Source: Pseudoxanthomonas sp. SE1
GTDB taxonomy: Bacteria; Pseudomonadota; Gammaproteobacteria; Xanthomonadales; Xanthomonadaceae
Assembly: GCF_029542205.1 (NCBI RefSeq)
Contig: NZ_CP113783.1
Coordinates: forward strand, 2,781,001 to 2,845,000
Length of the DNA stretch: 64,000 nt
Direction: 5' to 3'
This document shows positions 10,235-27,369 of this stretch, in pieces (the stretch's first letter is position 1; every line of letters starts with the position of its first letter). The translations under genes were made by a program, and so were the position numbers. The notes below the pieces were generated by a model. The model ran no database searches. It saw only the letters and a list, made by a program, of their open reading frames with translations, and was not told where the DNA came from.

Positions 10235-11328
10235 GCGTATTGCGCACGCGGCTGAGGACGCTCGACGAACTGACCGCGGCCGATATCGAAGCCTGGGACG
10301 GATTGGCGCATGCCACCGCGGCCTCCGTGCCCTTCCTGCTGCCGGGTTTCGTGCAGGCGGCGGCGCGCTGGCTGACGCCGGATGCGCCGCCGGTGGTGCT
10401 GACCATCGAGCGGGGAGGCGACCTGCTTGCCCTGACCTGCCTGCAGCGGCGCGCCGCGAACCTGTTCGTGCCGATGCCGCACTGGCGCGCGTACCGGCAC
10501 CTGCATGCGTTCCAGTCCGGCATCCTGCACCTGCCGGGCGAGGCCAGCGCCATCGCCGGGGAATTCGCCCGCCTGATGCATCGGGGCAGTTGGCGCGAGC
10601 GCGCGATCGTGTGGCACAACGTGGCCGCCGACGGCGAACTGTGGACGGCATTGCGCGAAGGAACAGGACTGCGCTGGAACCAGACCGGCTTCTCGCGGCG
10701 GCCGGTGCTGCGCCGCTTCCCAGGCGATGTGCCGGCGGCCGCGCGGGTCCGGCCGAACGTGGCGAAGGACCTGCGTCGACGGGCCCGGCGGCTGCAGGAA
10801 CGCGGCGACGTCAGCCTGCGCATCCTCGAGGGCCGTGAGGCGGATGCCGATGCGGCCACCCGCCACCTGGCCCTGGAGGATGCGGGCTGGAAGGGTGCGC
10901 AGGGCAGCTCCATGCTCGCATCCGACGCGGAGCGCACGTTCTTCCTGGAAGCCAGTGCACGCCTGGCGGACCGCGGCCACATGGTATTCGTCGAAACCCT
11001 GTGCGGCGACCACGTGGTGGCGTCCAGCAGCAACCTGTTGTGCGGCCACGCGTTGAGCGGCTTCAAGACGGGCTGGGATGCGAACTTCGCCAACGCCAGC
11101 CCCGGCAAACTCAACGAATGGCACCTGCTGCAGGCGCTGGACGGGCGATGGCCCGGGCTGGCCCTGTTCGACAGCCAGGCCCACGAAGATTCCTACATGG
11201 GCGAGCTGCTGCCCGATCGCCAGCCCATGGTGTCCGGCATCCTGCATGCGAAGGGACTGCAGCGTGGGTTGATCGCCGCGGCGCGCCCGCTGCGTCCGCT
11301 CGCGTACAAGCGCGGGCATGACGATTGA
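10231..11328 (+). CDS. FemAB/BioF2-like GNAT acyltransferase, copy 2
   Basis: A 365-residue protein of the same broad family as the preceding gene, with weak similarity between the two. Typical features are the early VPFLLPGFVQAAARWL segment, a basic helix (RPNVAKDLRRRARRL) and the C-terminal GNAT half containing HVVASSSNLLCGHALSGFK. The GTG at 10231 overlaps the previous stop and is the only start that avoids a long overlap. It ends the rightward operon that begins at 4545 and converges on the leftward genes at 11341, only 12 bp away. Transfer of an acyl or aminoacyl group to a sugar amine is inferred, not shown. Confidence 0.8.
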   Translation: MSVLRTRLRTLDELTAADIEAWDGLAHATAASVPFLLPGFVQAAARWLTPDAPPVVLTIERGGDLLALTCLQRRAANLFVPMPHWRAYRHLHAFQSGILHLPGEASAIAGEFARLMHRGSWRERAIVWHNVAADGELWTALREGTGLRWNQTGFSRRPVLRRFPGDVPAAARVRPNVAKDLRRRARRLQERGDVSLRILEGREADADAATRHLALEDAGWKGAQGSSMLASDAERTFFLEASARLADRGHMVFVETLCGDHVVASSSNLLCGHALSGFKTGWDANFANASPGKLNEWHLLQALDGRWPGLALFDSQAHEDSYMGELLPDRQPMVSGILHAKGLQRGLIAAARPLRPLAYKRGHDD

Positions 11329-11340
11329 CGATACGCCGCG

Positions 11341-11970
11341 TCAGGCGATCTGTTCGCGGTGCCAGGCGATCTCTTCGGCGGTCAGACGCAGGCGGCGCTG
11401 CGCAGGCCTGATCCTGGCCGGTGCCGGGAACTCCTTCGGTGGCAGGCTGCGCCAGAACCATGCCTCGCCGACCCGCAGGCAACGTACCGTCGCATAGCGA
11501 CTGAATCCCATCGCATCGTGGGCCCGCAACGACGGCCGGTTGGACACGCTCACGTCGGAGAAATATTCCATCGGCGTGGATTCGACGCTCATGCCCTGCC
11601 CCATCATCGCCACCAGCAGTCGCCGCCCGCGCCGCCTGGGCACCACGAACGCATCGCGCAACCATACCTGGGAGGGCGTCAGCGGCAGCTGCCAGGCAAG
11701 CTCGTCCATGTAACGCGGCACGCCATGCAGCGCCCAGAACCATGCGACAAGTTCTTCGCCCTCGATGATGCCGAAGCAACGCATGCCGTGGCGGTAGCGC
11801 CGCAGGATCCGTTCCGGCTTCCCCGACATGCCGTTGGCGCGGTACGCCGCCACCAGCCGGTCCATGTCCGCTTCACGCAGTTCGACGAAGCGCTGCTCCT
11901 CCGACAGCGTCATCGTGCATTGCGTCGCCGCCGGCCGTCGCAGCAAGGCGATGGCATCGAAATGAATCAT
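11341..11970 (-). CDS. GNAT-family N-acetyltransferase
   Basis: A 209-residue protein with a GNAT-like core. The segment VVPRRRGRRLLVAMMGQGM has the basic loop that binds the acyl-CoA pyrophosphate, and a DVSVSNRPSLRAHDAMGFSR segment matches the C-terminal N-x-S-x6-GF pattern. It probably acetylates an amine or hydroxyl of a sugar intermediate. The ATG at 11970 overlaps the stop of the flippase gene as ATGA, so both lie in one leftward unit. The precise substrate cannot be deduced. Confidence 0.8.
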   Translation of the reverse strand: MIHFDAIALLRRPAATQCTMTLSEEQRFVELREADMDRLVAAYRANGMSGKPERILRRYRHGMRCFGIIEGEELVAWFWALHGVPRYMDELAWQLPLTPSQVWLRDAFVVPRRRGRRLLVAMMGQGMSVESTPMEYFSDVSVSNRPSLRAHDAMGFSRYATVRCLRVGEAWFWRSLPPKEFPAPARIRPAQRRLRLTAEEIAWHREQIA

Positions 11971-13454
11971 GGTGTGCTTTCCCCTTCTCGCACCCGATCT
12001 TCGAGGTGCCGCCGACGCGACATCCCCAACCCTGCCAGCGCGTCCCCGACCAGGTCGCGCCCGACACCCCATATCGCTCCACCATACACAACCACGCCCA
12101 CAAGCACTTCACCCGCCAACCGCCAGCCGATGGCCAGGTGCGCCTGCGTGGCCCAGCGCCAGGCCAGCACGGCCACGCCCATCAATGCACACGCCAGTGC
12201 GATGCGCAGACAGGGCCCCACCAGTCCCTGCAGGCGCAGACCGTCGGCGCGGCAGGCACGCACCGTGAGCAGCCACTGCACGAGCGCGGCCACGCCGATG
12301 GCGCCCGACGCCAGCAGCACGCCGCCCTTCGACAGCAGCCACAACGACGACACCAGGGTCGCCATGGTCGCCACCTCGATCCACATCAGCCATTGATTGC
12401 GTGCATGCGCAGCGAGGAACGCGGACAGGATGAAGCTGCCCGTGCCCGGCAGCGCCGCGATGGCGAGCACGCTCAACAGCGGCGCGACCTGCCACCAGGT
12501 CGGGGGCAGCAGCGCACCGACCAGGGTGGGCGCACATATCGCCAGCCCTGCCGACATCGGGAACAGGAGCAATGCCGCGAACGTCAGCGCACGCACCATC
12601 AGGGCGGGCCGCTCCTGCGGTGGGGCGCGCGTCACCGCCGGCACCATCACCGTGCCGATGTGCCCGCCCACATACACCGCGGGCAACTGCGCAAGGTTGA
12701 ACGCCATGCCATAGCTGCCCGCATCGTGCGCACCCACGAGCCGGAACATCAGCGGCTTGTCCCAGTAGCGCGCGCCTTCGCTCAGGACGATCTCGCCCGT
12801 GATCGGCGCGCCGAAGCGCAGGATGTCGCGCAGCCGCGCAGCGGATACCCGCACCGGCTGCAGCCAATCGCGCAGGCGCGTCGCCGTGATCGTCGCGCCG
12901 GCGATGACGCAGGACTGGACGATGAAGGCGATGATCATCGCCTGCCCCCCCAGCGCGGTCATGCTGACCAGCGAGACGGCCACCACCGCATAGGCCACGT
13001 CGCCCAGCGCGGTGCCCAGCGCGATCCGACCGAAGCGCAACTCGCGTGCGAGCAGCTTGTCCGGAATCGCACCGAGGCGGCGTATGCCGATGCCCAGCAG
13101 TGCGCCCGGCAGGTAGTCGGCCACCCGCGGCGCCTGCAGCCACTGCGCGAGCGTCGGCGTGGCCCACCAGAGCGCTGCGATCATGACGATGCCTGCAAGC
13201 AGGTACACCATGCTCGCGGCGAAGATGGCGTCCCTGCCCTCGCCCCCGCGGACCACGACGTACTGGCCGCACCCCCACGCGGCGATCCAGTTGCCGGTCA
13301 GCGCGATCACCGTGGCCACGGTCACTTCGGCCACGATGTCCGGCGTCAGGTGGCGCGCGATCAGCAGGGTTCCGACCAGGCCCACCGCGCGTCCCGACAG
13401 GCCACCGATGATGCCGAGCGCGGCGCCGGAAAAGATCTTTCGGTGATCGTTCAA
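11967..13454 (-). CDS. Wzx-type polysaccharide flippase (second of two)
   Basis: A 495-residue integral membrane protein with roughly 12-14 hydrophobic segments and the polysaccharide-exporter N-terminus (IIGGLSGRAVGLVGTLLIARHLTPD). It is clearly a homologue of, but not a recent duplicate of, the flippase at 425-1978. Two flippases in one locus suggest two lipid-linked units or a redundant exporter. It is coupled to the GNAT gene by an ATGA overlap and lies 46 bp after the acyltransferase gene on the same strand. Confidence 0.9.
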   Translation of the reverse strand: MNDHRKIFSGAALGIIGGLSGRAVGLVGTLLIARHLTPDIVAEVTVATVIALTGNWIAAWGCGQYVVVRGGEGRDAIFAASMVYLLAGIVMIAALWWATPTLAQWLQAPRVADYLPGALLGIGIRRLGAIPDKLLARELRFGRIALGTALGDVAYAVVAVSLVSMTALGGQAMIIAFIVQSCVIAGATITATRLRDWLQPVRVSAARLRDILRFGAPITGEIVLSEGARYWDKPLMFRLVGAHDAGSYGMAFNLAQLPAVYVGGHIGTVMVPAVTRAPPQERPALMVRALTFAALLLFPMSAGLAICAPTLVGALLPPTWWQVAPLLSVLAIAALPGTGSFILSAFLAAHARNQWLMWIEVATMATLVSSLWLLSKGGVLLASGAIGVAALVQWLLTVRACRADGLRLQGLVGPCLRIALACALMGVAVLAWRWATQAHLAIGWRLAGEVLVGVVVYGGAIWGVGRDLVGDALAGLGMSRRRHLEDRVREGESTP

Positions 13455-15839: not shown

Positions 15840-17822
15840 ATGTGCGGAATCGCGGGTTTCATGGGTCCCGGGGTCGTCTCGACGGAGGCGCGGCCCTGGC
15901 TGGAGCGGATGATCCAGCCACTGGCGCACCGCGGTCCGGACGGCTTCGGCTTCCACGTCGCGCCGAGTGTCGGCCTGGCGCACGCGCGCCTGTCGATCAT
16001 CGACCTCTCCACCGGCGACCAGCCCATCCACAATCCGCGCCGTACCGTGTGGACGGTGTTCAATGGCGAGATCTTCAACTTCGTCGAACTGCGCAGGATG
16101 CTGGAGGACAAGGGCCACGTGTTCTACACGCAGTCCGACACCGAGGTGATCGTGCATCTGTACGACCGCTACGGCGAGGACTTCGTCCATCACCTCAACG
16201 GCCAGTTCGCCATCGCCCTGTGGGACAGCGAACGCCAGCGCCTGGTGCTGGCGCGCGACCGGGCCGGCATCCGTCCGCTGTACTACACCCGCCAGCGCGG
16301 TCGCCTGTGGTTCGCCTCCGAGGTGAAATCGCTGCTGGCCGTGCTGCCGGAATGTGCGCACCTCGAGCCGCAGGCGTTGCTGCAGACGCTGACCTACTGG
16401 GCGCCGGTGGATCCGGAGACGCTGTACCAGGGCGTGCAGAGCCTGCCGCCCGGCCATGTGCTGACGGTGGAGCGCGACGGGCGCCAGCACCTGCGCCGCT
16501 ACTGGGACTGGACGTTCCCGGACGCGGAAGCGACATCGCCTTCCCGGTACCCGCTCACGCTGGAGCAGGCCACGGCGGAACTGCGCGAACTGCTGGTCGA
16601 TGCGGTGCGCCTGCAGCTGCGCGCCGACGTCCCGGTGGGCGCCTACCTCAGCGGCGGCCTCGATTCGTCCGGCATCGTCGCGCTGATCCGCGGATTCACG
16701 GACACGCCGGTGCGCACGTTCTCGGTGGCGTTCGAGGATGGCGAGTTCGATGAAAGCGCGCACCAGCAGGCGATGGTGAGGCACCTGGGCACCGAGCACA
16801 CCACGTTGATGTGCACGCGCCGCGACATCGGCAATGCGTTTCCCCGCCTGATCCGCCACACGGAAACACCCGTGCTGCGCACCGGGCCCGTCCCGTTGAT
16901 GCTGCTGGCCGGCAGCGTGCGCCAGCACGGCTACAAGGTCGTGCTGACCGGCGAAGGTGCCGACGAAGTGTTCGGCGGCTACGACCTGTTCAAGGAAGCC
17001 AAGGTGCGGCGCTTCTGGGCGCGCCAGCCCGACTCCCGCCTGCGCCCGCGCCTGCTGGAAAAGCTCTACGGCTACCTGCAGAACTCGCCGGTGAGCAGCC
17101 CGGCGTTCGCGCAGTCGTTCTTCGGCCAGGGCATGGAGCACCTGCACCGGCCGATCTTCGCGCATGTCCCGCGCTGGACCACCTCGCAGCGTGCCTTCGC
17201 CTTCCTGGCGCCGGAACTGCGGACCATGGCCGCCCACTGGGATCCGCTGGACGCCTACGAGCACACGCTGCCGCCGGAGATGGCGCGATGGAACGATCTC
17301 GCACGCGACCAGTACGTGGAAGCCAAGTCGCTGCTGGCCGGCTACCTGCTGTCGTCGCAGGGCGACCGGGTGGCGATGGCGAACTCGATCGAAGGGCGTT
17401 TCCCCTACCTCGACCATCGCGTCATCGAGTTCGCCAACCGCCTGCCGCCCAGCTTCAAGATCCGCGGCATGACCGAAAAGTACCTGCTGCGGCGCGCCCT
17501 GGCGGAACTGCTGCCAGCGGACATCGTGAAGCGGACCAAGCAGCCGTACCGTGCACCGGACAGCCAGAGCTTCTTCTTCGATGGCAAGCCGCTGGACTAC
17601 GTCGCCGACCTGCTGTCGCCCGATGCGATCCGCGATGCCGGTTATTTCGACCCCGCGCCGGTATCGCGGCTGGTGGAGAAGTGCCGGCTGGGACGGGCGA
17701 CGGGCTTCGCCGACAACCAGGCGTTCGTGGGCATCCTTTCCACGATGCTGGTGCATCGGCAGACCGTCGAGGCGCGCTTGTCGCCCACTCCGGCGGCACA
17801 CCCTTCCGGCGCGGTCGCGTAG
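15840..17822 (+). CDS. asnB: AsnB-like asparagine synthase (glutamine-hydrolysing)
   Basis: A 660-residue class II glutamine amidotransferase fused to a PP-loop synthetase. Cys2 after Met1 is the N-terminal nucleophile, with RGPDG at 31-35 and NGEIFN near 75-80. The synthetase domain has the pyrophosphatase loop SGGLDSS at residues 271-277 and a later GEGADEVFGGY segment. The family hydrolyses glutamine and amidates an adenylated carboxylate. Copies in polysaccharide loci, including amidotransferases associated with exosortase A, are thought to amidate uronic acids or other acidic groups rather than make asparagine. It follows the GT4 gene by 27 bp and precedes the methyltransferase by 34 bp. 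Family certain; substrate inferred. Confidence 0.93.
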   Translation: MCGIAGFMGPGVVSTEARPWLERMIQPLAHRGPDGFGFHVAPSVGLAHARLSIIDLSTGDQPIHNPRRTVWTVFNGEIFNFVELRRMLEDKGHVFYTQSDTEVIVHLYDRYGEDFVHHLNGQFAIALWDSERQRLVLARDRAGIRPLYYTRQRGRLWFASEVKSLLAVLPECAHLEPQALLQTLTYWAPVDPETLYQGVQSLPPGHVLTVERDGRQHLRRYWDWTFPDAEATSPSRYPLTLEQATAELRELLVDAVRLQLRADVPVGAYLSGGLDSSGIVALIRGFTDTPVRTFSVAFEDGEFDESAHQQAMVRHLGTEHTTLMCTRRDIGNAFPRLIRHTETPVLRTGPVPLMLLAGSVRQHGYKVVLTGEGADEVFGGYDLFKEAKVRRFWARQPDSRLRPRLLEKLYGYLQNSPVSSPAFAQSFFGQGMEHLHRPIFAHVPRWTTSQRAFAFLAPELRTMAAHWDPLDAYEHTLPPEMARWNDLARDQYVEAKSLLAGYLLSSQGDRVAMANSIEGRFPYLDHRVIEFANRLPPSFKIRGMTEKYLLRRALAELLPADIVKRTKQPYRAPDSQSFFFDGKPLDYVADLLSPDAIRDAGYFDPAPVSRLVEKCRLGRATGFADNQAFVGILSTMLVHRQTVEARLSPTPAAHPSGAVA

Positions 17823-17856
17823 GACGCACACTCGGACATCTCGAGGGGATCAAGGC

Positions 17857-18801
17857 ATGGATTGGCGGGTCAAGGGCACCATCCAGAAAGTTCTCGGCGC
17901 GCTGCCCGGTGGGCATGGGCTGCACTTCCACCTGCAGCGCCGCTTCGGCGGCCTGCGCGATTTCGACGGTGAACTCGCGACCAAGGTGGACGACTGGGAA
18001 ATCATGATCGGCCACCTGCGCGGCGCCGGCATCGTGCTGCCCGGCGTCCGCTGCTTCGAGATCGGTACCGGGTGGTATCCGACATTCCCGTTCGCCTGCT
18101 ACCTGGCAGGTGCCGCGCGGGTGACCACGTACGATCTCAATCCGCACCTGCGCATGGACCTGACGTTGCGCTGCGCGGACGTGCTCGGCCGTTTCCTCGA
18201 TCGCATCGCCACCGCTGCCGGGGTTCCGCTCGCGGACGTCGAACAACGCCATCGACAGCTGCTCGAACGCCTGCGCGCGGGTGCCGACCTCGACGCCGCC
18301 AGCGGCGGCGTGATCCATTACCGCTCGCCGGCGGACGCCACCCGTACCGCGCTTCCGGACGGCGATGTCGATGTGGTGTTCTCCAACAGCGTGCTCGAAC
18401 ACGTGCCACCGGACGTGATCGATGCGATGTACGCCGAAGCCATGCGCATCCTGTCGCCGCACGGCCTGATGTTCCATTCGGTCAATTGCGGCGACCACTA
18501 CGCCTACGTGGACCGCAGCATCCACCAGTTGCACTACCTGAAGTATTCCGACACCCAGTGGCAACGCTGGAACAACGCCTTTCTCTACCAGAACCGGCTG
18601 CGCGCGCACTGGTTCGTGGAGGGCGCGCGCAGGCATGGGTTCGACATCGAACTGGACACGTCCACGACACGGCCCGAACGCATGCGCCAGCTTGCCGGCA
18701 TGCCCGTGCACCCGCAGTTCGCCCACGTACCGGCCGAGCAGCTGTGCATCACCAGCGTGGATTTCATCGCGCGCAAGCCGGCGGCGAGCGCGGCCGGCTG
18801 A
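17857..18801 (+). CDS. SAM-dependent methyltransferase-domain protein
   Basis: A 314-residue protein with a class I methyltransferase core: motif I CFEIGTGWYPTFPF, an acidic strand-2 end (TTYDLNPHL), and the post-motif DVDVVFSNSVLEHVPPDVI typical of methyltransferase type 11/23 proteins. The N-terminal ~60 residues are extra. It probably methylates a sugar or an intermediate made nearby. The ATG at 17857 follows an AGGGGATC stretch suited to ribosome binding. It is the last gene of the GT4-asnB group and converges on the sugar dehydrogenase gene, which ends 10 bp away on the opposite strand. Confidence 0.8.
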   Translation: MDWRVKGTIQKVLGALPGGHGLHFHLQRRFGGLRDFDGELATKVDDWEIMIGHLRGAGIVLPGVRCFEIGTGWYPTFPFACYLAGAARVTTYDLNPHLRMDLTLRCADVLGRFLDRIATAAGVPLADVEQRHRQLLERLRAGADLDAASGGVIHYRSPADATRTALPDGDVDVVFSNSVLEHVPPDVIDAMYAEAMRILSPHGLMFHSVNCGDHYAYVDRSIHQLHYLKYSDTQWQRWNNAFLYQNRLRAHWFVEGARRHGFDIELDTSTTRPERMRQLAGMPVHPQFAHVPAEQLCITSVDFIARKPAASAAG

Positions 18802-18811
18802 CCGTCGCGCG

Positions 18812-20026
18812 CTACTGCGCCGCGGCCTGTGCCGGCGCGGTTGTCGCAGGCGCGGGGGCGATACGCAGCAGCTTGCCGTCGGGTGCCGGTGCATCCACCA
18901 GCACGTAAAGTGCGCCATCCGGCCCCTGCCGCACGTCGCGGATGCGCTGGTTGCGTTCGGTCAGCAGGCGTTCTTCGTGCACCACGCGGTCGCCTTCCAG
19001 CTCCAGCCGGATCAGCGCCTTGGCCGCCAGCGCGCCCAGGAACAGATTGCCCTTCCAGCCCGGCAACGCGTCGCCGGTATAGAACGCCATGCCGCTGAGC
19101 CCGGGCGATTTCGCCCAGACATGATGGGGCTGCTCCATGCCCGGCGCCGCCGTACCCTGCGAACCCGGTACGGGGCGGCCGCTGTAATCGATGCCGTGGG
19201 TGATCACGGGCCAGCCGTAGTTGAGGCCGGCCCTGGGCAGGTTGAGTTCATCGCCGCCCATGGGCCCATGTTCGGTGGCCCACAACTGGCGCGTCACCGG
19301 GTGCAGGGCCGCACCCTGCACGTTGCGATGGCCGTACGACCAGATCTCGCCACGGGCACCTGCGCGCGACACGAAGGGATTGTCCGCGGGCACCGCGCCA
19401 TCGGGACGGATGCGCGCGATCTTGCCGGACAGCTTGTCCAGCTCCTGCGCCGTGGCCGCACCGACGCGGTTGTCGCCCTGGGTGACGAACAGGTTGCCCT
19501 GGTCGTCGAACACCAGCCGTGCACCGACGTGGGTGCCGTGCGAGAGCTTGGGCTCCTGCCGGTACACGACGCTCGACTCGACCAGCGCATCGCCCTGCAG
19601 CTTGCCGCGCACGACCGCCGTCCCCGCCTTGTTGCCGCGGAAATTGGGCTCTGCGAAGGCCAGGTAGACCCAACCGTCCTGCGGGTAACCGGGCGACAGG
19701 GCGACGTCCAGCAGACCGGCCTGTCCATCGACGAAGATCTCCGGCAACCCGGTGACGGGTGCCGACACGCTGCCGTCGGCGGCGATCCTGCGCAGTCGTC
19801 CTGCCCGTTCGGTGACCAGCATGCCGCCCTCGGGCAGGAAGGCGAGCGACCAGGGATGGTCGAGGCCGACGACCTGTTCCGACACCACGAAATCCTGCTT
19901 CTCCGACGCGTAGGCCGTTGGCACCGGATCCTGCATCGAGCGGGGCGGTGCGGCGGGCGCCGCGACGGGATCGGCCTGGCGGCACGCCGCCAGCGCCAGG
20001 ACCAGCAGACACAGGGACAGACGCAT
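18812..20026 (-). CDS. PQQ-dependent sugar dehydrogenase (Asd/YliI-like lipoprotein)
   Basis: A 404-residue beta-propeller protein of the soluble aldose sugar dehydrogenase family. The N-terminus is a lipoprotein signal with lipobox LAAC (Cys about residue 15), so it should be anchored in an outer or periplasmic membrane leaflet. Family motifs include LDHPWSLAFLPEGGMLVTER, GTHVGARLVFDDQGNL and ATEHGPMGGDELN, which hold the catalytic and PQQ-contact regions. It oxidises free aldoses in the periplasm using PQQ. It is on the opposite strand to its neighbours and splits the amidation/activation genes, so it may be a separate unit rather than a working part of the locus. Confidence 0.92.
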   Translation of the reverse strand: MRLSLCLLVLALAACRQADPVAAPAAPPRSMQDPVPTAYASEKQDFVVSEQVVGLDHPWSLAFLPEGGMLVTERAGRLRRIAADGSVSAPVTGLPEIFVDGQAGLLDVALSPGYPQDGWVYLAFAEPNFRGNKAGTAVVRGKLQGDALVESSVVYRQEPKLSHGTHVGARLVFDDQGNLFVTQGDNRVGAATAQELDKLSGKIARIRPDGAVPADNPFVSRAGARGEIWSYGHRNVQGAALHPVTRQLWATEHGPMGGDELNLPRAGLNYGWPVITHGIDYSGRPVPGSQGTAAPGMEQPHHVWAKSPGLSGMAFYTGDALPGWKGNLFLGALAAKALIRLELEGDRVVHEERLLTERNQRIRDVRQGPDGALYVLVDAPAPDGKLLRIAPAPATTAPAQAAAQ

Positions 20027-20167
20027 CGTGGACTCCTGTCGGCAGGGTTGCAGGGCCGCGATGGTAGCACCGGCGGATCGTCCGCCAGCCCCCCGTCCAG
20101 ATGGCCGGTGATACGCGGAACCGCCGTTCATGTGAGCAGCAACGGAACAAGAAGCGTTGGGGAAACC

Positions 20168-20416
20168 ATGCCGCAGAAGCAGCAGATCAAAACCTTCATC
20201 CTGCAGAACTTTCTCTTCTCGGATGATCCTTCCGCCGTGGGCGATCAGGATTCGCTGATCCAGGGCGGCATCATCGACTCGACGGGGATCCACGAGCTGG
20301 TGTTCTTCCTGGAGGACGCGTTCAAGCTGCAGATCGCGGCGGAAGAGATGACGCCCGCCAATTTCGACTCCATCCAGACCGTCGACGCGTTCATCTCGCG
20401 CAAGCTGGCCGGCTGA
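20168..20416 (+). CDS. Stand-alone acyl/peptidyl carrier protein
   Basis: An 82-residue acidic helical protein matching the phosphopantetheine-binding fold. The attachment serine is Ser38 in GGIIDSTGIHELVFFLED, a variant of the usual D-S-L motif with threonine after serine. It would carry an acyl or aminoacyl thioester on 4'-phosphopantetheine. The ATG at 20168 follows TTGGGGAAACC, a fair ribosome site. It begins a tight rightward operon: carrier, AMP-forming ligase, NadE-like protein, GNAT protein. Carrier plus ligase next to polysaccharide genes is known from exosortase-A-type loci, but the loaded acid is not known. Confidence 0.88.
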   Translation: MPQKQQIKTFILQNFLFSDDPSAVGDQDSLIQGGIIDSTGIHELVFFLEDAFKLQIAAEEMTPANFDSIQTVDAFISRKLAG

Positions 20417-20437
20417 CCCGTCGCGCACGCCGTCGCC

Positions 20438-21946
20438 ATGGAGCGCCTCGCCACCCGACTCGCGCGGATCGCCCGTACCACGCCGCAGCGCACCGCGATG
20501 ATGGAGGGCGAGCGCACGATCGACTACGGCACGTTCTGGTCGCAGGCCTCCGGCTTCGCGCATCACCTGCGCCAGGCCGGATTGCGGGCAGGCGAGCGCG
20601 TGGCGCTGGTGCTCCCGAACAGGATCGAGGCCGCGGTGGCCCTGTATGGCATCTGGCTGGCCGGCGGCGTCGCCGCACCGCTGAATGCGCAGGCGCGTTC
20701 GCGCGACTTCATGCCCTGGCTGCGCCACTGCGGTGCGCGCTTCGTGGTGCATGAAAGTGGGCATCGCGACATGGAGCAGACCTTCGCGCAATGGGAAGAC
20801 GCGACACCCGCGCCGCAGGCGATCGCGCTGGCGCCGGACGGCGGCCTGCCCGCGGTCAAGGGCGACGAAGACTGGCCGCAGCGCGATGCCGACGACACGC
20901 TGGCGCAACTGCTCTACACCTCGGGCACGACCGGCGAGCCCAAGGGCGTGATGCTGAGCCATACGAATCTCGCCGCCAATACCGATGCCGTCATCGCTTA
21001 CCTGGACCTGACGCGCGAAGACGTGATCGTCAGCGTGCTGCCGTTCTACTACGCCTATGGCGCATCGGTGCTGCATACCCATCTGGCCAGCGGTGCGTGC
21101 CTCGTGCTTGGCCCCGGCATGGTGTTCCCGATCCAGGTGCTTGACGCGCTGCAGCGCCACCGCGCGACCGGGTTCTCCGGCGTTCCGTCCACCTATGTGC
21201 TGTTGATGGAGATGCTGGAGCGCCGCAGCCACGACCTGTCTTCGCTGCGCTACCTGACGCAGGCGGGAGGCGCGATGGCGCCTGCGGTCGCCGACCGCGT
21301 CCGCGCGGTGCTTCCGGATGCGCGCCTGTTCCTGATGTATGGCCAGACCGAAGCCACGTCGCGGATCAGCTGGCTTCCGCCGGAACGTCTGGACGACAAG
21401 CGGGGCTCGGTCGGCATCCCCGTGCAGGACACGCAGTGGCGCATCCTGCGCGAGGACGGCAGTCCTGCCGCGACGGGCGAAGCAGGCGAAGTCTGCGTGC
21501 GCGGTCCCGGCATCATGCAGGGCTACTGGAACCACCCCGCCGGCACCGCGTCGGTCCTGCGCGATGGCTGGCTGCATACCGGTGATCTCGGCCATGTCGA
21601 CGCCGATGGTTATCTGTTCCTGCAGGGCCGGCGCAGCGACATGATCAAGACCGGCGCCCACCGCGTGCACCCCAACGACGTGGAAGAAGTCATCGCGGAG
21701 CTTGCCGGCATCCGCGAAGTGGCCGTGGTCGGCGTGGACGACGATACGCTGGGCCAGGTCATCAAGGCCTTCGTGGTGGCGGACGAGTGCATCCCGCGTG
21801 CAGAAGACCGCATCAAGGCGCACTGCCGTGCACGCCTGCCGGCCTACAAGATTCCCCGACACATCACCTTCGTCGAAGCCCTGCCGCGGACTGCATCCGG
21901 CAAGGTCAGACGCATCCAACTGACGGAGCAGACCACCACGCCATGA
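20438..21946 (+). CDS. AMP-forming acyl ligase (acyl-CoA/acyl-ACP synthetase family)
   Basis: A 502-residue adenylate-forming enzyme. The phosphate-binding loop TSGTTGEPKG is at residues 161-170, the acid/adenylate motif MYGQTEATS follows, then the hinge region WLHTGDLGHVDADGY, and catalytic Lys489 in PRTASGKVRR near the C-terminus. It activates a carboxylic acid as acyl-adenylate and passes it to a thiol. With the carrier protein gene 21 bp upstream, loading of that carrier is the natural inference. The stop overlaps the start of the NadE-like gene by ATGA. It resembles the AMP-forming ligases associated with exosortase A clusters; the acid substrate is unknown. Confidence 0.9.
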   Translation: MERLATRLARIARTTPQRTAMMEGERTIDYGTFWSQASGFAHHLRQAGLRAGERVALVLPNRIEAAVALYGIWLAGGVAAPLNAQARSRDFMPWLRHCGARFVVHESGHRDMEQTFAQWEDATPAPQAIALAPDGGLPAVKGDEDWPQRDADDTLAQLLYTSGTTGEPKGVMLSHTNLAANTDAVIAYLDLTREDVIVSVLPFYYAYGASVLHTHLASGACLVLGPGMVFPIQVLDALQRHRATGFSGVPSTYVLLMEMLERRSHDLSSLRYLTQAGGAMAPAVADRVRAVLPDARLFLMYGQTEATSRISWLPPERLDDKRGSVGIPVQDTQWRILREDGSPAATGEAGEVCVRGPGIMQGYWNHPAGTASVLRDGWLHTGDLGHVDADGYLFLQGRRSDMIKTGAHRVHPNDVEEVIAELAGIREVAVVGVDDDTLGQVIKAFVVADECIPRAEDRIKAHCRARLPAYKIPRHITFVEALPRTASGKVRRIQLTEQTTTP

Positions 21947-22923
21947 GCCAGCTCGATCACCATGTCCTCGACATCGACTACCAGAGCGAAGCCGACCGCA
22001 TCGCCGCACGCCTGCGCGAGATCACCGCGCGCCAGCTGCACAGACGCGGCCTGGTGGTCGCGATTTCGGGCGGCATCGACAGCTCCGTCAGCGCCGCGCT
22101 GGCCGTGCGCGCCCTGGGACCGGATCGCGTCTTCACGCTGATCCTGCCCGAGCGTGATTCCTCCGACGACAGCGCCGCGCGCGCACGCATCCTCGCCGAA
22201 CACCTGGGCGTGCGGACCGAGACGGTGGACATCGCGCCCGCGCTGGCAGCGATCGGCTGCTACCGCGCGCGCGACGAAGCCGTTCGCAACACGCTGCCCG
22301 AGTATGCCGAAGGCTGGAAGTTCAAGATCGTCATCGACGGCGGCACGGAAGGCCGCATCAACCGTTTCCGCCTGGTGGCGCAGTCGCCGGACAGCGTATT
22401 GCACGAACGCGACCTCGCCCTGGCCGACTACCTGACCATCGTCGCTGCCACCAACTTCAAGCAGCGCATCCGCAAGACCCTGGAGTATTTCCATGCCGAC
22501 CGCCTCAACTACGGCGTGGTCGGCACGCCCAACCGCGTGGAGTACGACCAGGGCTTCTTCGTCAAGAACGGCGACGGCTCGGCGGACGTCAAGCCGATCG
22601 CGCACCTCTACAAATCGCAGGTGTACGGCATGGCACGCCATCTCGGCCTGCCCGAGCGCGTCTGCGCCGCCATACCGACCACCGACACCTACAGCCTGAG
22701 CCAGGGCCAGGACGAGTTCTACTTCGCCCTGCCCTACCAGCAGATGGACCTGGCGTTGTGGGCCCTCAACCATGACAGGCCGGCGGGCGAACTCGCCATC
22801 GCGCTGGGCATCACGCCGGCGCAGGCGCAGGCCGTCTACGACGACATCCGCAACAAGCGCCGCACCACGCAGTACCTGCACATGGCGCCGGTGCTGGCCG
22901 GCGACGTCCCGGAACTCGGCTGA
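21943..22923 (+). CDS. NadE-like ammonia-dependent amide synthetase (NAD synthase family)
   Basis: A 326-residue PP-loop ATP pyrophosphatase. The loop ISGGIDSS at residues 41-48 and the segments ATNFKQRIRKTLEY, YGVVGTPNRVEYDQGFFVKNGDG and PIAHLYKSQVYGMARHLG match NH3-dependent NAD synthases. It is about 50 residues longer than typical NadE (~275) because of an inserted stretch around residues 105-155. No glutaminase domain is present, so ammonia would have to come from elsewhere, possibly the AsnB-like protein. Its place between an acyl ligase and a GNAT gene, coupled by an ATGA overlap, suggests a repurposed amide synthetase rather than the cell's NAD synthase. That reassignment is inference. 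Confidence 0.85.
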   Translation: MSQLDHHVLDIDYQSEADRIAARLREITARQLHRRGLVVAISGGIDSSVSAALAVRALGPDRVFTLILPERDSSDDSAARARILAEHLGVRTETVDIAPALAAIGCYRARDEAVRNTLPEYAEGWKFKIVIDGGTEGRINRFRLVAQSPDSVLHERDLALADYLTIVAATNFKQRIRKTLEYFHADRLNYGVVGTPNRVEYDQGFFVKNGDGSADVKPIAHLYKSQVYGMARHLGLPERVCAAIPTTDTYSLSQGQDEFYFALPYQQMDLALWALNHDRPAGELAIALGITPAQAQAVYDDIRNKRRTTQYLHMAPVLAGDVPELG

Positions 22924-22926
22924 GCG

Positions 22927-23982
22927 ATGAACGTCGCCCCCCCCGCCCCGCAGTACCTCGTGCAGGCCGGTCACCCGGCGCGCGATCGCGAGACGGTGCT
23001 CGCGCTGTGGCGGGGAAACCTGGGCCAGGACGCCCGGATGACCGCGAAGTACGAGTGGTTCTACCTGCGCTGCCCGCATGGCGAGCCGCTGCTGCAGTTG
23101 CTGCTCGATGTCCCGACGCAGACGCATGCGGGCACGGCATCGGCTGGCAGGCGCCGCCTCGTGTGGCAGGGGCGCGAACTGCGTGCAGGCGTACTCGTCG
23201 ACCTCGCCGTGCTGCCCCAGCATCGTTCGTTGGGGCCTGCCCTGATGTTGCAGCAGGGATTGATCGCGGCTGCGGACGAAGCGCTCGATGTTCTCTACGG
23301 CTTCCCGAATCCCAAGGCCGCCCCGGTGTTCAAGCGGATCGGATATGCCCAGTCCGCGCATCTGGTGCGCTACGCACGCGTGCTGCGCCATGCCCACTAT
23401 CTTCGCAGTCGCCTTCCGGGCTGGCTCGCATCACCTGCGGGCTGGGCCGCCGACAGGGTCGTCGCGCTCCGCGATGCATGGTCGCGCCTGCGCGGGCCGG
23501 CGTTGCGCTCGGCATGGGCGGACCAGGCCGATGCCCGCATCGATGCGGTGTGGGCGGACTCCCACAAGGGCGACGATGTCATGGCGGTACGCGATGTCGG
23601 CCATCTGCGCTGGCGCTTCGACGAGTGTCCGCTGGCGACCACCCGCTATCTGCTGGTGAAGCGCGCACGCGACCGTGCCCTGCAGGCCTGGTTCGCCGTG
23701 CAGCGCATCGAGGGTACGCTGCATGTACGCGACTTCTGGTCCCTCGACGGTGCCCACGGCATGGCGGCGATGCATGTGGGGGAGCTGCTTCGTGCAGCAC
23801 GCAAGTCGGGCTGCGCGGCTGTCTCGGTGGAGATGTGCGCATCGGACGCGCAACGCGAGGGGTGGCAGGCGCTGCATTTCGTCGAGCGCGGACGGAGACC
23901 GGTGTTCACGCGCTGGAGCTCGTCAGGCGAACCGGCAGCCGCCGCGTCGCTGTTCCTGACCTCGGCGGACGAAGACGAATAA
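22927..23982 (+). CDS. GNAT-domain acyltransferase of the ACP/ligase/NadE-like operon
   Basis: A 351-residue protein starting 3 bp after the NadE-like gene's stop. The first half has a GNAT-like core: GVLVDLAVLPQHRSLGPALMLQ contains the acyl-CoA/pantetheine loop Q-x-R/H-x-x-G/S, and ALDVLYGFPNPKAAPVFKRIGY is the typical C-terminal strand-helix. A second half with HLRWRFDECP resembles paired-GNAT proteins of polysaccharide loci. In this operon it is a good candidate to take an acyl group from the carrier protein and put it on a sugar or lipid-linked intermediate. No experimental family role is known to me. Confidence 0.78.
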   Translation: MNVAPPAPQYLVQAGHPARDRETVLALWRGNLGQDARMTAKYEWFYLRCPHGEPLLQLLLDVPTQTHAGTASAGRRRLVWQGRELRAGVLVDLAVLPQHRSLGPALMLQQGLIAAADEALDVLYGFPNPKAAPVFKRIGYAQSAHLVRYARVLRHAHYLRSRLPGWLASPAGWAADRVVALRDAWSRLRGPALRSAWADQADARIDAVWADSHKGDDVMAVRDVGHLRWRFDECPLATTRYLLVKRARDRALQAWFAVQRIEGTLHVRDFWSLDGAHGMAAMHVGELLRAARKSGCAAVSVEMCASDAQREGWQALHFVERGRRPVFTRWSSSGEPAAAASLFLTSADEDE

Positions 23983-24011: not shown

Positions 24012-25043
24012 TCAGGCCAGGCGACGCGCCTGGCGTCGGAACAGGTACAGCGCCAGCCAATCTTCGCGGAACCGCCCCTTGGCATCGACGACCGCATCGG
24101 TTTCGAAGCCCGTTCTGCCCAGCAGCCAGCCAACTCCCTTCGTCGTGGGATTCAGTACCGGCACGCTGGTGAACAGCAACTCGTAACCGGCTTCGCGCGC
24201 GCGCTGCGCGATGGCGGCATCGAATGATCCATGCGGGAACGACATCGACTCCGCATTGGCATGCGGTTGCCCCAGCTGCCGGGCAAGCGATGCGCGTGCA
24301 CCGGCAAGTTCCGCGTCCAGATCATCCGCCAGCTTCATTGGTGCATGAGTCTTGCCATGCAGGCCCAGGGCCACGCCCCCGGCTTCAAGCTGATGCAGTT
24401 CCTCGACCGTGACCATGTGGCGGTGCCCATCATCGAGCCGCGCCATGAAAGGCGCCAGCACGCGCGCGCGGACATCCGCCTCCAATGCTTCGAGGCGCGC
24501 GATCACTTCGCGCAGGGCGCCTATGGTCTCATCGACCTCGGTCCCTGGCGCCTCGCCAGCCGGCAACGCAGCCGCGAGTTCGCGCACCCCCAGCGCTCCG
24601 CGCCGCCACGCGCCGATGAGGCGTTCCTGGAAGAAAGGCTGCCGGGTTCCCACCGCATCGGCCACCACGAACAGCAGCGCCGGCAAGCCAGCCCGCTTCA
24701 ACGCGGGGAGCGCGTAGTGGGCATTGTCGGCCCAGCCGTCGTCGAAAGTGATCAGCAGGGATCTCGGCGGCAGGGCTGCGCCCGTCCTGCGCGAGGCCAG
24801 CACCTGCTCCAGCGACACCACGCTGTAGTGGCGGCGGAAGAAGGCCAACGACTGCTCAAGCCAGCGTGTGGCAAGCGTGTAGTCCGGGTCGCAGGTCGCC
24901 CAGCGCGGATCGTCCGGACTCAAGGTACGATGGAACATCACCACCGTCAGGCTGTCCGCATTGCGCAGCCGGTGATAGAGGCCGAGCAGACCGCTCGTAT
25001 ACAACAGCTTCTTGGAGACGTCCTTCAGCATGGCGCCCGACAT
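24012..25043 (-). CDS. Polysaccharide deacetylase (NodB homology), second of two
   Basis: A protein of 343 residues from the ATG at 25043 (339 from the ATG at 25031) with the NodB motif LLITFDDGWADN and the second metal motif LGLHGKTHAPMKL. The N-terminus (LKDVSKKLLYTSGLLGLYHRLRN) is basic without a clear signal peptide. It should deacetylate a sugar in the growing glycan. A TATAAT hexamer 14-19 bp upstream of the 25043 start suggests a very short leader there, favouring 25043 over 25031. Its start region overlaps that of the divergent glycosyltransferase, an unusual arrangement reported separately. Confidence 0.88.
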   Translation of the reverse strand: MSGAMLKDVSKKLLYTSGLLGLYHRLRNADSLTVVMFHRTLSPDDPRWATCDPDYTLATRWLEQSLAFFRRHYSVVSLEQVLASRRTGAALPPRSLLITFDDGWADNAHYALPALKRAGLPALLFVVADAVGTRQPFFQERLIGAWRRGALGVRELAAALPAGEAPGTEVDETIGALREVIARLEALEADVRARVLAPFMARLDDGHRHMVTVEELHQLEAGGVALGLHGKTHAPMKLADDLDAELAGARASLARQLGQPHANAESMSFPHGSFDAAIAQRAREAGYELLFTSVPVLNPTTKGVGWLLGRTGFETDAVVDAKGRFREDWLALYLFRRQARRLA

Positions 25044-25947
25044 CGAAGTTTCAGTGATTATACCGACGTACAACCGCCGGGACCTGTTGCCGCGCGCCAT
25101 CGATTCCGTACTCGCGCAGACCCGCCGCATCGACGAGATCATCGTGGTGGACGACGGCTCCACCGACGGCACGGCCGACATGCTGCAGGCGCGCTACGGC
25201 GAGCGCGTGAAGCACGTATGGCAATCCAACGCCGGCGTCTCGGCTGCGCGCAACCATGGCCTCCGCCTCGCCCGTGGCCGCTATCTCGCACTGCTCGACA
25301 GCGACGACGAGTGGCTGCCGGAGAAGACCGCACTGCAGGTGGCATTCCTCGAATCCAGGCCGGACTTCGGCATGGTCGTCTGCGACGTCGAGCGCATCGA
25401 TGGCGATTACCGCCATATCGACGTCTTCCATCGCCGCGATGTGATCCGTGAGGATGGCTGGGCGCTGCGATGGTTGTTGCACAACCCGGCGTTGGTTCCG
25501 GCGTCGGTCATGCTCCGCCGGCAGGTGGTGGACCAGTTGGGCGGGTTCGATGAGACATTGCGCACTGCCGAAGATCTCGAGTTCCATCTCAGGGTCGCAC
25601 GCCACTGGCCGATCGGCGTCGTCGAACAGGCCCTCGTCCGCGCGATGCGCGGGCACGAAGGCCTGTCGGCAGCCAGCAGCACGTACGACGATTATGTCCG
25701 CGTGGTCGAAGCCGCGGTCGCCAGTGCCCGTGGCGCGCTCGACGACGGCGAACTGGACGCGGCGCTCGCCGGCACCTATCTCCGCAATGCGCGCGGCATG
25801 CTGATACGCCGTCGCTGGGCTGCGGGCGCCAGGCTGGCCAACCGCGCCTGGCGGTTTTCCCGGGACAGGGGACAACGTCGCGAGATCCTGGCCCTGTTGC
25901 CGTTCGGCCTGAAACGCTTCCTGCGCGGATTGCTCCCGGCCGGTTGA
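25030..25947 (+). CDS. Family 2 glycosyltransferase (GT-A)
   Basis: A 305-residue inverting glycosyltransferase. The GT2 N-terminus VSVIIPTYNRRDLLPRAIDS, the strand IIVVDDGSTDGT and the metal-binding D-x-D-type LLDSDDEW are all clear. It lacks membrane segments and would act at the cytoplasmic face on a lipid-linked acceptor. The ATG at 25030 overlaps the start codon region of the oppositely oriented deacetylase; an ATG at 25012 is also possible, and a GGAG lies at 25014-25017. Downstream it converges on the sugar transferase gene, 24 bp away. Confidence 0.92.
   Translation: MAPDIEVSVIIPTYNRRDLLPRAIDSVLAQTRRIDEIIVVDDGSTDGTADMLQARYGERVKHVWQSNAGVSAARNHGLRLARGRYLALLDSDDEWLPEKTALQVAFLESRPDFGMVVCDVERIDGDYRHIDVFHRRDVIREDGWALRWLLHNPALVPASVMLRRQVVDQLGGFDETLRTAEDLEFHLRVARHWPIGVVEQALVRAMRGHEGLSAASSTYDDYVRVVEAAVASARGALDDGELDAALAGTYLRNARGMLIRRRWAAGARLANRAWRFSRDRGQRREILALLPFGLKRFLRGLLPAG
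25057..25062 (-). promoter_or_regulatory. Candidate -10 element (TATAAT) of the second deacetylase gene
   Basis: Read on the minus strand, positions 25062-25057 are a perfect TATAAT. Transcription from it would begin near 25050, leaving only about seven leader bases before the ATG at 25043. No good -35 hexamer lies 16-18 bp upstream. The element also lies inside codons 10-11 of the divergent glycosyltransferase, so it could be chance. Confidence 0.35.
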
Positions 25948-25971: not shown

Positions 25972-27369
25972 TCAGCGCGCGCCGCGGCCGAACAACACGA
26001 CCTCTACGGTCTGAAGCAGGATCATCACGTCGAACACCAGGCCATGGTTCTTGACGTAGAAGAGATCGAACTTGAGCTTCTCTTCCGCATCGCGCACCGA
26101 AGCACCATAGGGGTAGCGCAGCTGCGCCCATCCGGTCAGGCCAGGCTTGACGCTGTGCCGCACACCGTAATAGCGCACTTCATCGTTGAGCATGTCGACG
26201 AAATGCGGACGCTCGGGCCGCGGGCCCACGAAGCTCATGTCGCCACGCAGCACCGCGATGAGCTGCGGCAGTTCGTCCAGGCGCGTCTTGCGGATGAAGC
26301 GTCCTACCCGCGTGCTGCGGTCGTCATCCTTGCTCGCCCAGATCGCGACACCGCCTTTCTCGGCATCCACCCGCATGCTGCGGAACTTGGTCAACGTGAA
26401 ATGGCGCCCACGCTCGCCCACGCGCGTCTGGCTGTAGAAGACAGGCCCGCCCGACTCGAGCCAGACAGCGAGGCCTACGAGGACCATCAGCGGCCAGCTG
26501 ACCAGCAGCAGCGCGCCTGCGGCGAGCAGATCGAAGAAGCGCTTGCTCAAGCGTCGTGGCGTGGAGTAGTCGAAGCCGCCCGAGAACACGAGCCACGAGG
26601 GATCCACGGCATTGAGTTGCACCATGCCCGCTTCGCGTTCGAAGAAGCTGGACAGGTCCACCACCGAAATTCCCTGCTGCACGCACTGGAGCATCTGCTC
26701 CATGGGCAGCCCGCCGCGACGCTCATCGGGTGCGATCACCAACTCATCGATCAGCAGGCGTTCCGTGAGGGCGTGGAGTCCTTCGTCCCCCATGTGGACC
26801 AGCATGTCCTCCTGTACATGCACGGGCTGGCCCGGCACCGGCACGAATCCCACCACCGAGAACGTGCGACGGTCCGAGCGGCGACGCATGCAGGAATTGA
26901 TGAGGTCCGCGTTGCGGCCGGCGCCGAGAATCAGGACGCGCTGCTTCAGTACGTCCGAATGGAACACCCGCACCCACCCGATGCGCACCACCACGATACT
27001 GACCACCCCGATGCCCAACGAAATGGCCAGCACGCCGCGACCGAGATAGGCCTGGGGCACCAGGTAGTACAGGACGACGAGCGCGATGCCGCCAAACGCG
27101 AACGAAAGCGCAAGGCGCAGCGCGAAGTCCATGCGCGTATGCCGGACATGGGTCTGGTAAAGACCGAAGGCGGTCATGGAGCCGGTGATCGCCAAAGCCA
27201 CCAGTGCGGCCCGCCATGGCGTTTGCTCCAGGAACATCACCTGGTATTCCGGATCGGTGTGGAAGCGGATCCACGCCGCTGCCATCACGGCCGCGAACAG
27301 TACGACCACTTCCCCCAACCACAGGAACCGGATGACCCGGTCCTTGCGGCTCTTGTGCGTTGCCTTCAT
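25972..27369 (-). CDS. Undecaprenyl-phosphate sugar phosphotransferase (WcaJ/EpsB-like initiating enzyme)
   Basis: A 465-residue polyisoprenyl-phosphate hexose-1-phosphate transferase. Four or five N-terminal membrane helices precede a nucleotide-binding-like domain (RVLILGAGRNADLI). The C-terminal bacterial sugar transferase domain starts with KRFFDLLAAGALLLVSWPLM and includes TLTKFRSMRVDAE, RKTRLDELPQL, GDMSFVGPRPERP and PGLTGWAQLRYPYG. It starts each repeat unit by putting sugar-1-phosphate on undecaprenyl phosphate. The layout resembles sugar transferases of exosortase-A-type loci. The ATG at 27369 gives the short basic lead usual before the first helix. It follows a terminator behind the beta-helix gene, so it probably has its own promoter. 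Confidence 0.93.
   Translation of the reverse strand: MKATHKSRKDRVIRFLWLGEVVVLFAAVMAAAWIRFHTDPEYQVMFLEQTPWRAALVALAITGSMTAFGLYQTHVRHTRMDFALRLALSFAFGGIALVVLYYLVPQAYLGRGVLAISLGIGVVSIVVVRIGWVRVFHSDVLKQRVLILGAGRNADLINSCMRRRSDRRTFSVVGFVPVPGQPVHVQEDMLVHMGDEGLHALTERLLIDELVIAPDERRGGLPMEQMLQCVQQGISVVDLSSFFEREAGMVQLNAVDPSWLVFSGGFDYSTPRRLSKRFFDLLAAGALLLVSWPLMVLVGLAVWLESGGPVFYSQTRVGERGRHFTLTKFRSMRVDAEKGGVAIWASKDDDRSTRVGRFIRKTRLDELPQLIAVLRGDMSFVGPRPERPHFVDMLNDEVRYYGVRHSVKPGLTGWAQLRYPYGASVRDAEEKLKFDLFYVKNHGLVFDVMILLQTVEVVLFGRGAR

Follow-up and report, generated by a model that had tools for sequence, protein, structure and literature searches.

A conserved carrier protein, ligase and amide synthetase module of Pseudoxanthomonas sp. 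SE1 and its relatives, with a proposed role in forming carboxamide-bearing acyl groups

A 64-kb stretch of DNA (positions 2781001-2845000; hereafter the window) from the one-contig 4.23-Mb genome of Pseudoxanthomonas sp. SE1 carries genes for a carrier protein, an adenosine monophosphate (AMP)-forming acid:carrier ligase, a PP-loop protein resembling the NH3-dependent nicotinamide adenine dinucleotide (NAD) synthase NadE (NadE-like protein), an AsnB-like amide synthetase and a tandem acyltransferase of the GNAT fold. The module is real and conserved, and many bacteria, including Pseudoxanthomonas and the nitrogen-fixing Sinorhizobium meliloti, have it, often near genes for surface sugars. With middling confidence, we propose that AsnB, carrier, ligase and NadE-like protein form a single conserved module whose product is a carboxamide-bearing acyl group attached to the carrier and that the GNAT protein moves this group to an amine.

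Results

The four core genes occur together

Gene neighbourhoods were compared at 92 loci, namely the 80 best among 576 confirmed stretches, 11 further stretches and the window, and genes were counted when they lay no more than 9 kb from the NadE-like gene and scored above fixed values. Because the best 80 of the 576 stretches were kept, this sample is skewed to close relatives. The carrier gene was found at 87 loci, the ligase gene at 84 and asnB at 76, with all four core genes present at 70 and arranged in the order AsnB-carrier-ligase-NadE-like on one strand (as judged by stop codons) at 47. Thirteen neighbourhoods of housekeeping NadE, some of them clipped by contig ends, were used as controls, and they contained no carrier, AsnB or GNAT gene and a single ligase gene (367 bits). 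At least one core gene is missing from 22 of the 92 loci, and in 17 of these cases contig ends or a ligase encoded elsewhere account for the gap. In 12 cases (L054, L062, L065, L068, L070, L071, L082, L114, L118, L122, L124, and L125) the upstream flank of the NadE-like gene is cut off by the contig end at less than 6 kb, L114 also being without carrier and ligase downstream. In L076, L077, L081, L086 (Luteimonas), and L110 the ligase is absent locally with the flank present, and in all five genomes a ligase scoring 629-727 bits is encoded outside the locus; the next-best AMP ligase reaches 318-360 bits in four of these genomes, and in the fifth there was no other under the limit used.

When 299 genomes of the phylum were screened, 12 were above the NadE-like cut-off, and these were the same 12 that possess a carrier of at least 94 bits, two of which (the window and L039) are included in the carrier alignment employed. 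Some carrier match at E<=1e-8 was obtained for 46 genomes, the 34 further ones having weaker matches only (best 63 bits). Also, pairwise distances of the four core proteins are correlated across the 70 complete loci (Mantel r 0.49-0.77, none of 999 permutations being as high), to which shared descent of the hosts contributes. These co-occurrence counts confirm that the gene arrangement is not due to chance, and the grouping of the NadE-like protein with carrier and ligase put forward in an initial annotation of this DNA is borne out and extends to AsnB. Judging from record titles, module loci are also present in Burkholderiales, Myxococcota, and one Gemmatimonadaceae metagenome-assembled genome. 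Two loci carry additional copies on the opposite strand: L065 (from about 10.7 kb) has a second ligase and a lower-scoring carrier besides the module's own ligase, and in L075 (from about 17 kb) the opposite-strand ligase is the highest-scoring one nearby and is again accompanied by a lower-scoring carrier (82-84 bits for the two carriers).

The NadE-like protein forms a clade separate from housekeeping NadE

The NadE-like protein shares 96% identity with a homologue from Pseudoxanthomonas mexicana, and the closest loci are also from Pseudoxanthomonas. Its fold and ATP site match those of NadE, it contains the PP-loop motif ISGGIDSS, and 37 alignment columns, PP-loop included, are common to it and NH3-dependent NadE when conservation of at least 85% is required in both sets (17 NadE rows and 70 NadE-like rows). 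However, 28 columns conserved in the 17 NadE rows, which belong mostly to one class, differ in the NadE-like protein, among them F>V167, D>I166, D>P196, and H>N197. The Phe among the substrate-side columns of NadE stacks on nicotinate. The archaeal NadE 2e18 also deviates at substrate-side columns (for example, Asn in the GTxN motif). When compared to NH3-dependent NadE, the NadE-like protein possesses an insertion between about residues 88 and 160, for which one helix (106-117) and three strands (126-132, 141-147, and 153-158) are predicted and which, in the alignment, holds invariant residues of its own.

In a tree of 16 NadE-like and 20 housekeeping NadE rows, the two sets are split by a branch with 100/99 support, and the L164 and L165 rows lie on a long branch. 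All 12 searched genomes that carry the NadE-like clade, including that of Pseudoxanthomonas sp. SE1, encode another NadE. A housekeeping NAD synthase is ruled out by these two results, and the reading of the initial annotation is supported in this respect: the protein is neither the sole NAD synthase of the genome nor grouped with the sampled housekeeping enzymes, and it accompanies carrier and ligase. That it might serve as an additional NAD synthase securing the supply of NAD would agree with the name NAD(+) synthase given to the clade by NCBIfam and the databases and with its NadE-type fold and ATP site, yet we consider this highly improbable in view of the other NadE, the well-supported split, the insertion with its own invariant residues, and the carrier, which at the score given above is present in the same 12 genomes and in none of the 287 others. 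Proteins of this clade, which tracks a carrier protein, are probably misnamed in databases. A sugar amidine enzyme of the WbpG type was also considered and rejected, since the NCBIfam matches of the NadE-like protein, 12 in all, include no such family. In the genome screen for NadE-like proteins, one of 14 named control genomes was above the NF002048 cut-off.

Carrier, ligase and AsnB retain their catalytic motifs

All motifs pointed out in the initial annotation are present. Ser38 of the carrier lies within GGIIDSTG, where D37, S38, T39, and G40 are invariant in 12 rows. The nearest relatives of the carrier with solved structures are peptidyl and D-alanyl carrier proteins, and its best NCBIfam scores, both under the respective cut-off, were obtained with the ornithine-lipid acyl carrier protein (ACP) family OlsHI-ACP (61 bits) and with AmcB (45 bits; cut-off 80). 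The ligase contains TSGTTGEPKG, and TSGxTG as well as Lys489 are invariant in 12 aligned rows. The synthetase-domain motifs of AsnB, Cys2 and SGGLDS among them, show at least 95% conservation across 70 rows, which argues against the earlier suggestion that AsnB is a mere supplier of ammonia. With 363 of 570 bits for TIGR03104, AsnB is below the cut-off for the N-acetylglutaminylglutamine amide system, which was rejected as a candidate. The AsnB of the window is not the only copy, as a second AsnB-like protein (600-aa frame) is encoded elsewhere in the genome at 1241866-1242783.

The acyltransferase is predicted to have an Eis/N-myristoyltransferase-type tandem GNAT fold

At E<=0.001, the protein that the initial annotation had called GNAT matches no family of Pfam or NCBIfam, and it is the predicted fold that supports this call. 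Each chain has two GNAT domains, and fold comparison matches it with Eis and with N-myristoyltransferase (NMT), at identities of 11-14% to Eis-type rows and 7-12% to NMT rows. In Eis and NMT the C-terminal carboxylate sits in the active site. The GNAT alignments extend as far as model residue 350/351, and D348 in the conserved tail is invariant in 20 rows. A first-pass profile detects the gene at 53 of the 92 loci and at none of the 13 controls, and an iterated profile at 56 loci; the first-pass count is the specific one because the iterated profile also matches three of 13 controls. The predicted Eis/NMT-type identity of this tandem GNAT protein is newly recognised here. Pseudoxanthomonas wuyuanensis has a KAS III-like gene right beside its GNAT-family and module genes (L112:3788-6211), a hint that this lineage includes a ketoacyl step.

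A PrmC-type gene accompanies the module in some lineages

We found a new partner of the module, a PrmC/HemK-family gene present at 24 of the 92 loci (in 18 cases it lies upstream of the NadE-like gene, in four beside the carrier on the other strand, and in two downstream); weak matches in L055 and L059 (25-30 bits) were left out of this count, and the profile matched one of 13 controls, at 29 bits. The module-linked proteins are distinct from housekeeping PrmC. The four that were scored reached 160-170 bits for TIGR00536, all above the cut-off of 115.5, and 188-200 bits for TIGR03534, where one of them exceeded the cut-off of 199.1. The motif NPPY is found in nine of 14 rows, APPY in four, and IPPY in one. 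Members of the PrmC/HemK family are glutamine-amide N-methyltransferases, and their recurrence at these loci suggests that the module deals with a carboxamide.

The core operon is found on Sinorhizobium plasmids

Matches to the NadE-like protein were located by tblastn in 117 plasmid records, of which 76 come from Sinorhizobium. On a megaplasmid of pSymB size in S. meliloti RCAM1115, contiguous genes are annotated as asnB, acyl carrier protein, acyl-CoA ligase, and nadE. The encoded AsnB, carrier, ligase, and NadE-like proteins are 51, 45, 35, and 55% identical to those of the window and score 922, 104, 640, and 494 bits, respectively, with the module profiles. In the window, carrier, ligase, and NadE-like genes are contiguous and asnB is set apart. 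About 12 kb from the NadE-like gene of the S. meliloti megaplasmid, a GNAT-family gene overlaps a PrmC-type gene (287 bits) by 4 bp, and genes annotated for a lipopolysaccharide biosynthesis protein, GumC, O-antigen ligase, deacetylase, and glycosyltransferase follow this pair. The GNAT protein was detected with E values of 4.5e-6 (first-pass profile) and 2e-38 (iterated profile); it is the one of four rhizobial GNAT-family proteins of about 370 aa that the first-pass profile finds, whereas the iterated profile finds all four. Among the plasmid records compared (60 of 90 and 60 of 117), PrmC-type and NadE-like genes are separated by 1.2 kb (Ensifer adhaerens NZ_CP084487), 3.5 kb (S. fredii NGR234), 5.7 kb (S. 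sojae CCBAU 05684), and 11.6 kb (S. meliloti 1021).

We take the RCAM1115 operon to be equivalent to the pSymB genes that include SMb20651 (ACP) and SMb20650 (ligase). A study of 2009 by Ramos-Vega reportedly names the four-gene operon in its abstract, and SMb20651 acylated with C12:0 or C18:0 is said to have been seen in E. coli. In PMC7232532, SMb20650 and SMb20651 are described as cotranscribed, and SMb20651 was acylated in E. coli upon co-expression of SMb20650; according to PMC5686131, SMb20651 and SMc01553 have functions that 'need further investigation'. The statement of the initial annotation that no pathway with this exact set had been described has therefore to be revised, as the four genes lie together on pSymB and carrier and ligase are in print. 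No published pathway or product for the gene set was found in the literature searched, which omits most subscription papers; no paper on OlsH turned up either, and the gene set is not mentioned in the available part of an aminolipid review (PMC11631085). A conserved exopolysaccharide (EPS) cluster of Zoogloea and Aquincola contains two asparagine synthetase genes, NadE not being mentioned in the excerpt available (PMC9012009). The module is a variant of the reported S. meliloti operon, and the NadE clade, the GNAT protein, and the PrmC-type partners are what is added here.

If the ligase loaded a fatty acid, the product might be an amide-bearing lipid or an N-acyl amide transferred by an NMT-like GNAT protein. 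Such a role in lipid formation would be in line with the overlap of the GNAT fold with NMT, with OlsHI-ACP as the best family match of the carrier (below cut-off), with the C12:0 or C18:0 acylation of SMb20651 reportedly seen in E. coli, and with the listing of smb20650 among genes activating fatty acids in an S. meliloti transcriptome paper (PMC10315480). However, the carrier is closest to peptidyl and D-alanyl carriers in the PDB, a plain fatty acid offers the amide enzymes no obvious substrate, and SMb20650 restored none of the fadD mutant phenotypes tested and cannot replace FadD (PMC7232532), a test of coenzyme A rather than carrier loading. We regard this alternative as unlikely.

The module of the window lies in a polysaccharide locus

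The features of the window are listed in Table 1. Carrier, ligase, NadE-like, and GNAT genes follow each other on the plus strand with spacings of 21, -4, and 3 bp, so that the head-to-tail operon of the initial annotation agrees with the coordinates. AsnB and methyltransferase genes are located upstream as it had claimed; they do not directly adjoin the carrier operon, and because a minus-strand dehydrogenase gene intervenes, they are unlikely to be on the carrier's transcript. Relatives of this dehydrogenase were encountered at 19 of 92 loci, the window included, and at none of 13 controls; apart from the window, all such loci fall among L045 and L047-L065, and the gene is probably not part of the module. 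The methyltransferase is a lineage-specific neighbour and not of the PrmC type, with profile matches at 13 of 92 loci.

Table 1. Genes of the module and of its surroundings in the window
Feature	Position	Strand	Evidence
AsnB-like glutamine-dependent amide synthetase (Cys2, SGGLDS)	15840-17822	+	TIGR01536 504 bits, PF00733 326 bits
S-adenosylmethionine methyltransferase (Methyltransf_11/25)	17857-18801	+	Pfam match made on fragment from 18019
Pyrroloquinoline quinone-dependent glucose/sorbosone dehydrogenase-like gene	18812-20026	-	PF07995 436 bits
Carrier protein, phosphopantetheine site Ser38	20168-20416	+	D-S-T-G site
AMP-forming acid:carrier ligase	20438-21946	+	PF00501 285 bits
NadE-like PP-loop amide synthetase with insertion (residues ~88-160)	21943-22923	+	
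Tandem GNAT acyltransferase, Eis/NMT type (predicted fold), conserved C-terminal tail	22927-23982	+	
Polysaccharide deacetylase	24012-25181	-	PF01522 49 bits
Polyprenyl sugar-phosphate transferase	25972-27369	-	TIGR03013 528 bits, above cut-off
Polysaccharide flippase-like protein	11967-13454	-	PF13440 103 bits
O-antigen polymerase/ligase-like protein	1975-3270	-	PF04932 60 bits

Profile matches of the surrounding genes, which besides those in Table 1 comprise deacetylases, glycosyltransferases, acyltransferase-3, and two Acetyltransf_6 proteins, bear out a polysaccharide setting, and the deacetylase next to the operon could be the source of a free amine on a sugar. Polysaccharide-type genes, as detected with the window's own six profiles, occur at 46 of the 92 loci versus none of the 13 controls. 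The exosortase-A type that had been assumed for the locus is not supported, as the whole genome of Pseudoxanthomonas sp. SE1 contains no PF09721 match at E<=0.001 and as AsnB and ligase stay below the cut-offs of the XrtA families TIGR03108 (441 of 817 bits) and TIGR03098 (365 of 592 bits). Possible further acyltransferases besides the operon GNAT are the Acetyltransf_6 (PF13480) proteins encoded at 9092-10234 and 10237-11328 on the plus strand and a small protein without Pfam match encoded at 11341-11970 on the minus strand.

Discussion

For the substrate, the order of the steps, the place of amidation (on or off the carrier), and the acceptor, we infer the following course. The ligase would adenylate a carboxylic acid, with di- and tricarboxylic acids being the likeliest candidates, and load it onto the phosphopantetheine at Ser38. 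The NadE-like protein, as an NH3-dependent amide synthetase that would have departed from NAD synthesis, and the glutamine-using AsnB would turn one or more carboxyl groups into amides, and in some lineages the PrmC-type enzyme would N-methylate the amide. The tandem GNAT protein would then pass the acyl group to an amine, in the window most likely that of an amino sugar of the surrounding polysaccharide. We favour a polyacid because the amide synthetases would find nothing to act on in plain fatty acids, because the carrier resembles peptidyl and D-alanyl and, more weakly, AmcB-type carriers, and because the AMP ligase AmcH of the cispentacin system loads 2-oxoglutarate onto the stand-alone ACP AmcB (PMC10698177). 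An amino sugar is favoured as acceptor because of the Eis-like fold and of the presence of polysaccharide-type genes at module loci but not at controls, and the acceptor is the least certain part of the proposal. More tentatively, a NadE clade might have been recruited to amidate acids tethered to, or destined for, a carrier, with PrmC-type N-methylation in some lineages and an Eis/NMT-like GNAT protein that decorates an amino sugar of a surface polysaccharide.

Several observations weigh against this course. AsnB does not adjoin the carrier in the window, and the module may be able to do without it because it is missing from five loci with full flanks (L041, L053, L057, L066, and L067); the retention of two amide synthetases side by side is not accounted for by the proposed course. 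The nearest relatives of the ligase with solved structures form a mixed set (gramicidin A-domain, feruloyl, oxalate, coumarate, malonyl, and fatty acyl). No PrmC-type match was found near the module in the window, and the Asn of NPPY is replaced by Ala or Ile in five of the 14 PrmC-type rows. The S. meliloti core operon has no polysaccharide-type gene within 8 kb, such genes were not detected with the six profiles at 46 of the 92 loci, and GNAT went undetected within 9 kb at 36 loci even by the iterated profile. The last two counts, together with the location of the core operon among unrelated genes on some plasmids, would also suit a free small molecule (an osmolyte, signal, or metallophore), the placement in polysaccharide loci then being incidental. 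Set against this are the GNAT gene at 53-56 loci, polysaccharide-type genes at 46 of the 92 loci but at none of the 13 controls, and the S. meliloti GNAT/PrmC pair beside polysaccharide genes, and we think a free product rather improbable.

In summary, co-occurrence, a NadE-like protein outside housekeeping NadE, and a polysaccharide setting stand from the initial annotation, while its exosortase-A assignment, AsnB as mere ammonia supplier, and the undescribed gene set are unsupported or have to be modified. If formation and transfer of a carboxamide-bearing acyl group prove true, the module would be a new and widespread route of acyl-amide decoration for cell surfaces, and the orphan S. meliloti carrier SMb20651 would gain a function. 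The module ties this orphan rhizobial ACP to polysaccharide loci of Xanthomonadaceae relatives and predicts a testable chemistry, a carboxamide that is N-methylated in some lineages. S. meliloti 1021 is a tractable model because it carries the NadE-like and PrmC-type genes about 12 kb apart on one replicon.

Among known systems, NH3-dependent NadE shares fold, PP-loop and ATP residues with the NadE-like protein, which differs by its own clade, its insertion, and its association with a carrier. The theme of AsnB, ligase, and carrier is known from XrtA/PEP-CTERM EPS loci, and the window likewise has a TIGR03013 transferase above cut-off; in contrast to those loci, it lacks the exosortase and family-level matches described above. 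AsnB-like amidotransferases acting on malonyl-ACP, as in oxytetracycline (OxyD) and glutarimide polyketide formation, place an amide on a carrier-bound acid, whereas the module of the window has no polyketide synthase and includes a NadE-like enzyme in addition. The S. meliloti pSymB operon consists of the same four core gene families; in the window, by contrast, the operon includes the GNAT gene, a dehydrogenase gene parts asnB from the carrier gene, and the module lies inside a polysaccharide locus. Loading of a dicarboxylate onto a stand-alone ACP would be shared with AmcH/AmcB, although the window carrier is under that family's cut-off and amide synthetases, unlike in the module, are not mentioned in the available part of that report (PMC10698177). 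Finally, the predicted tandem GNAT fold is that of Eis and NMT, and the acyl donor expected for the GNAT protein of the module is the carrier protein.

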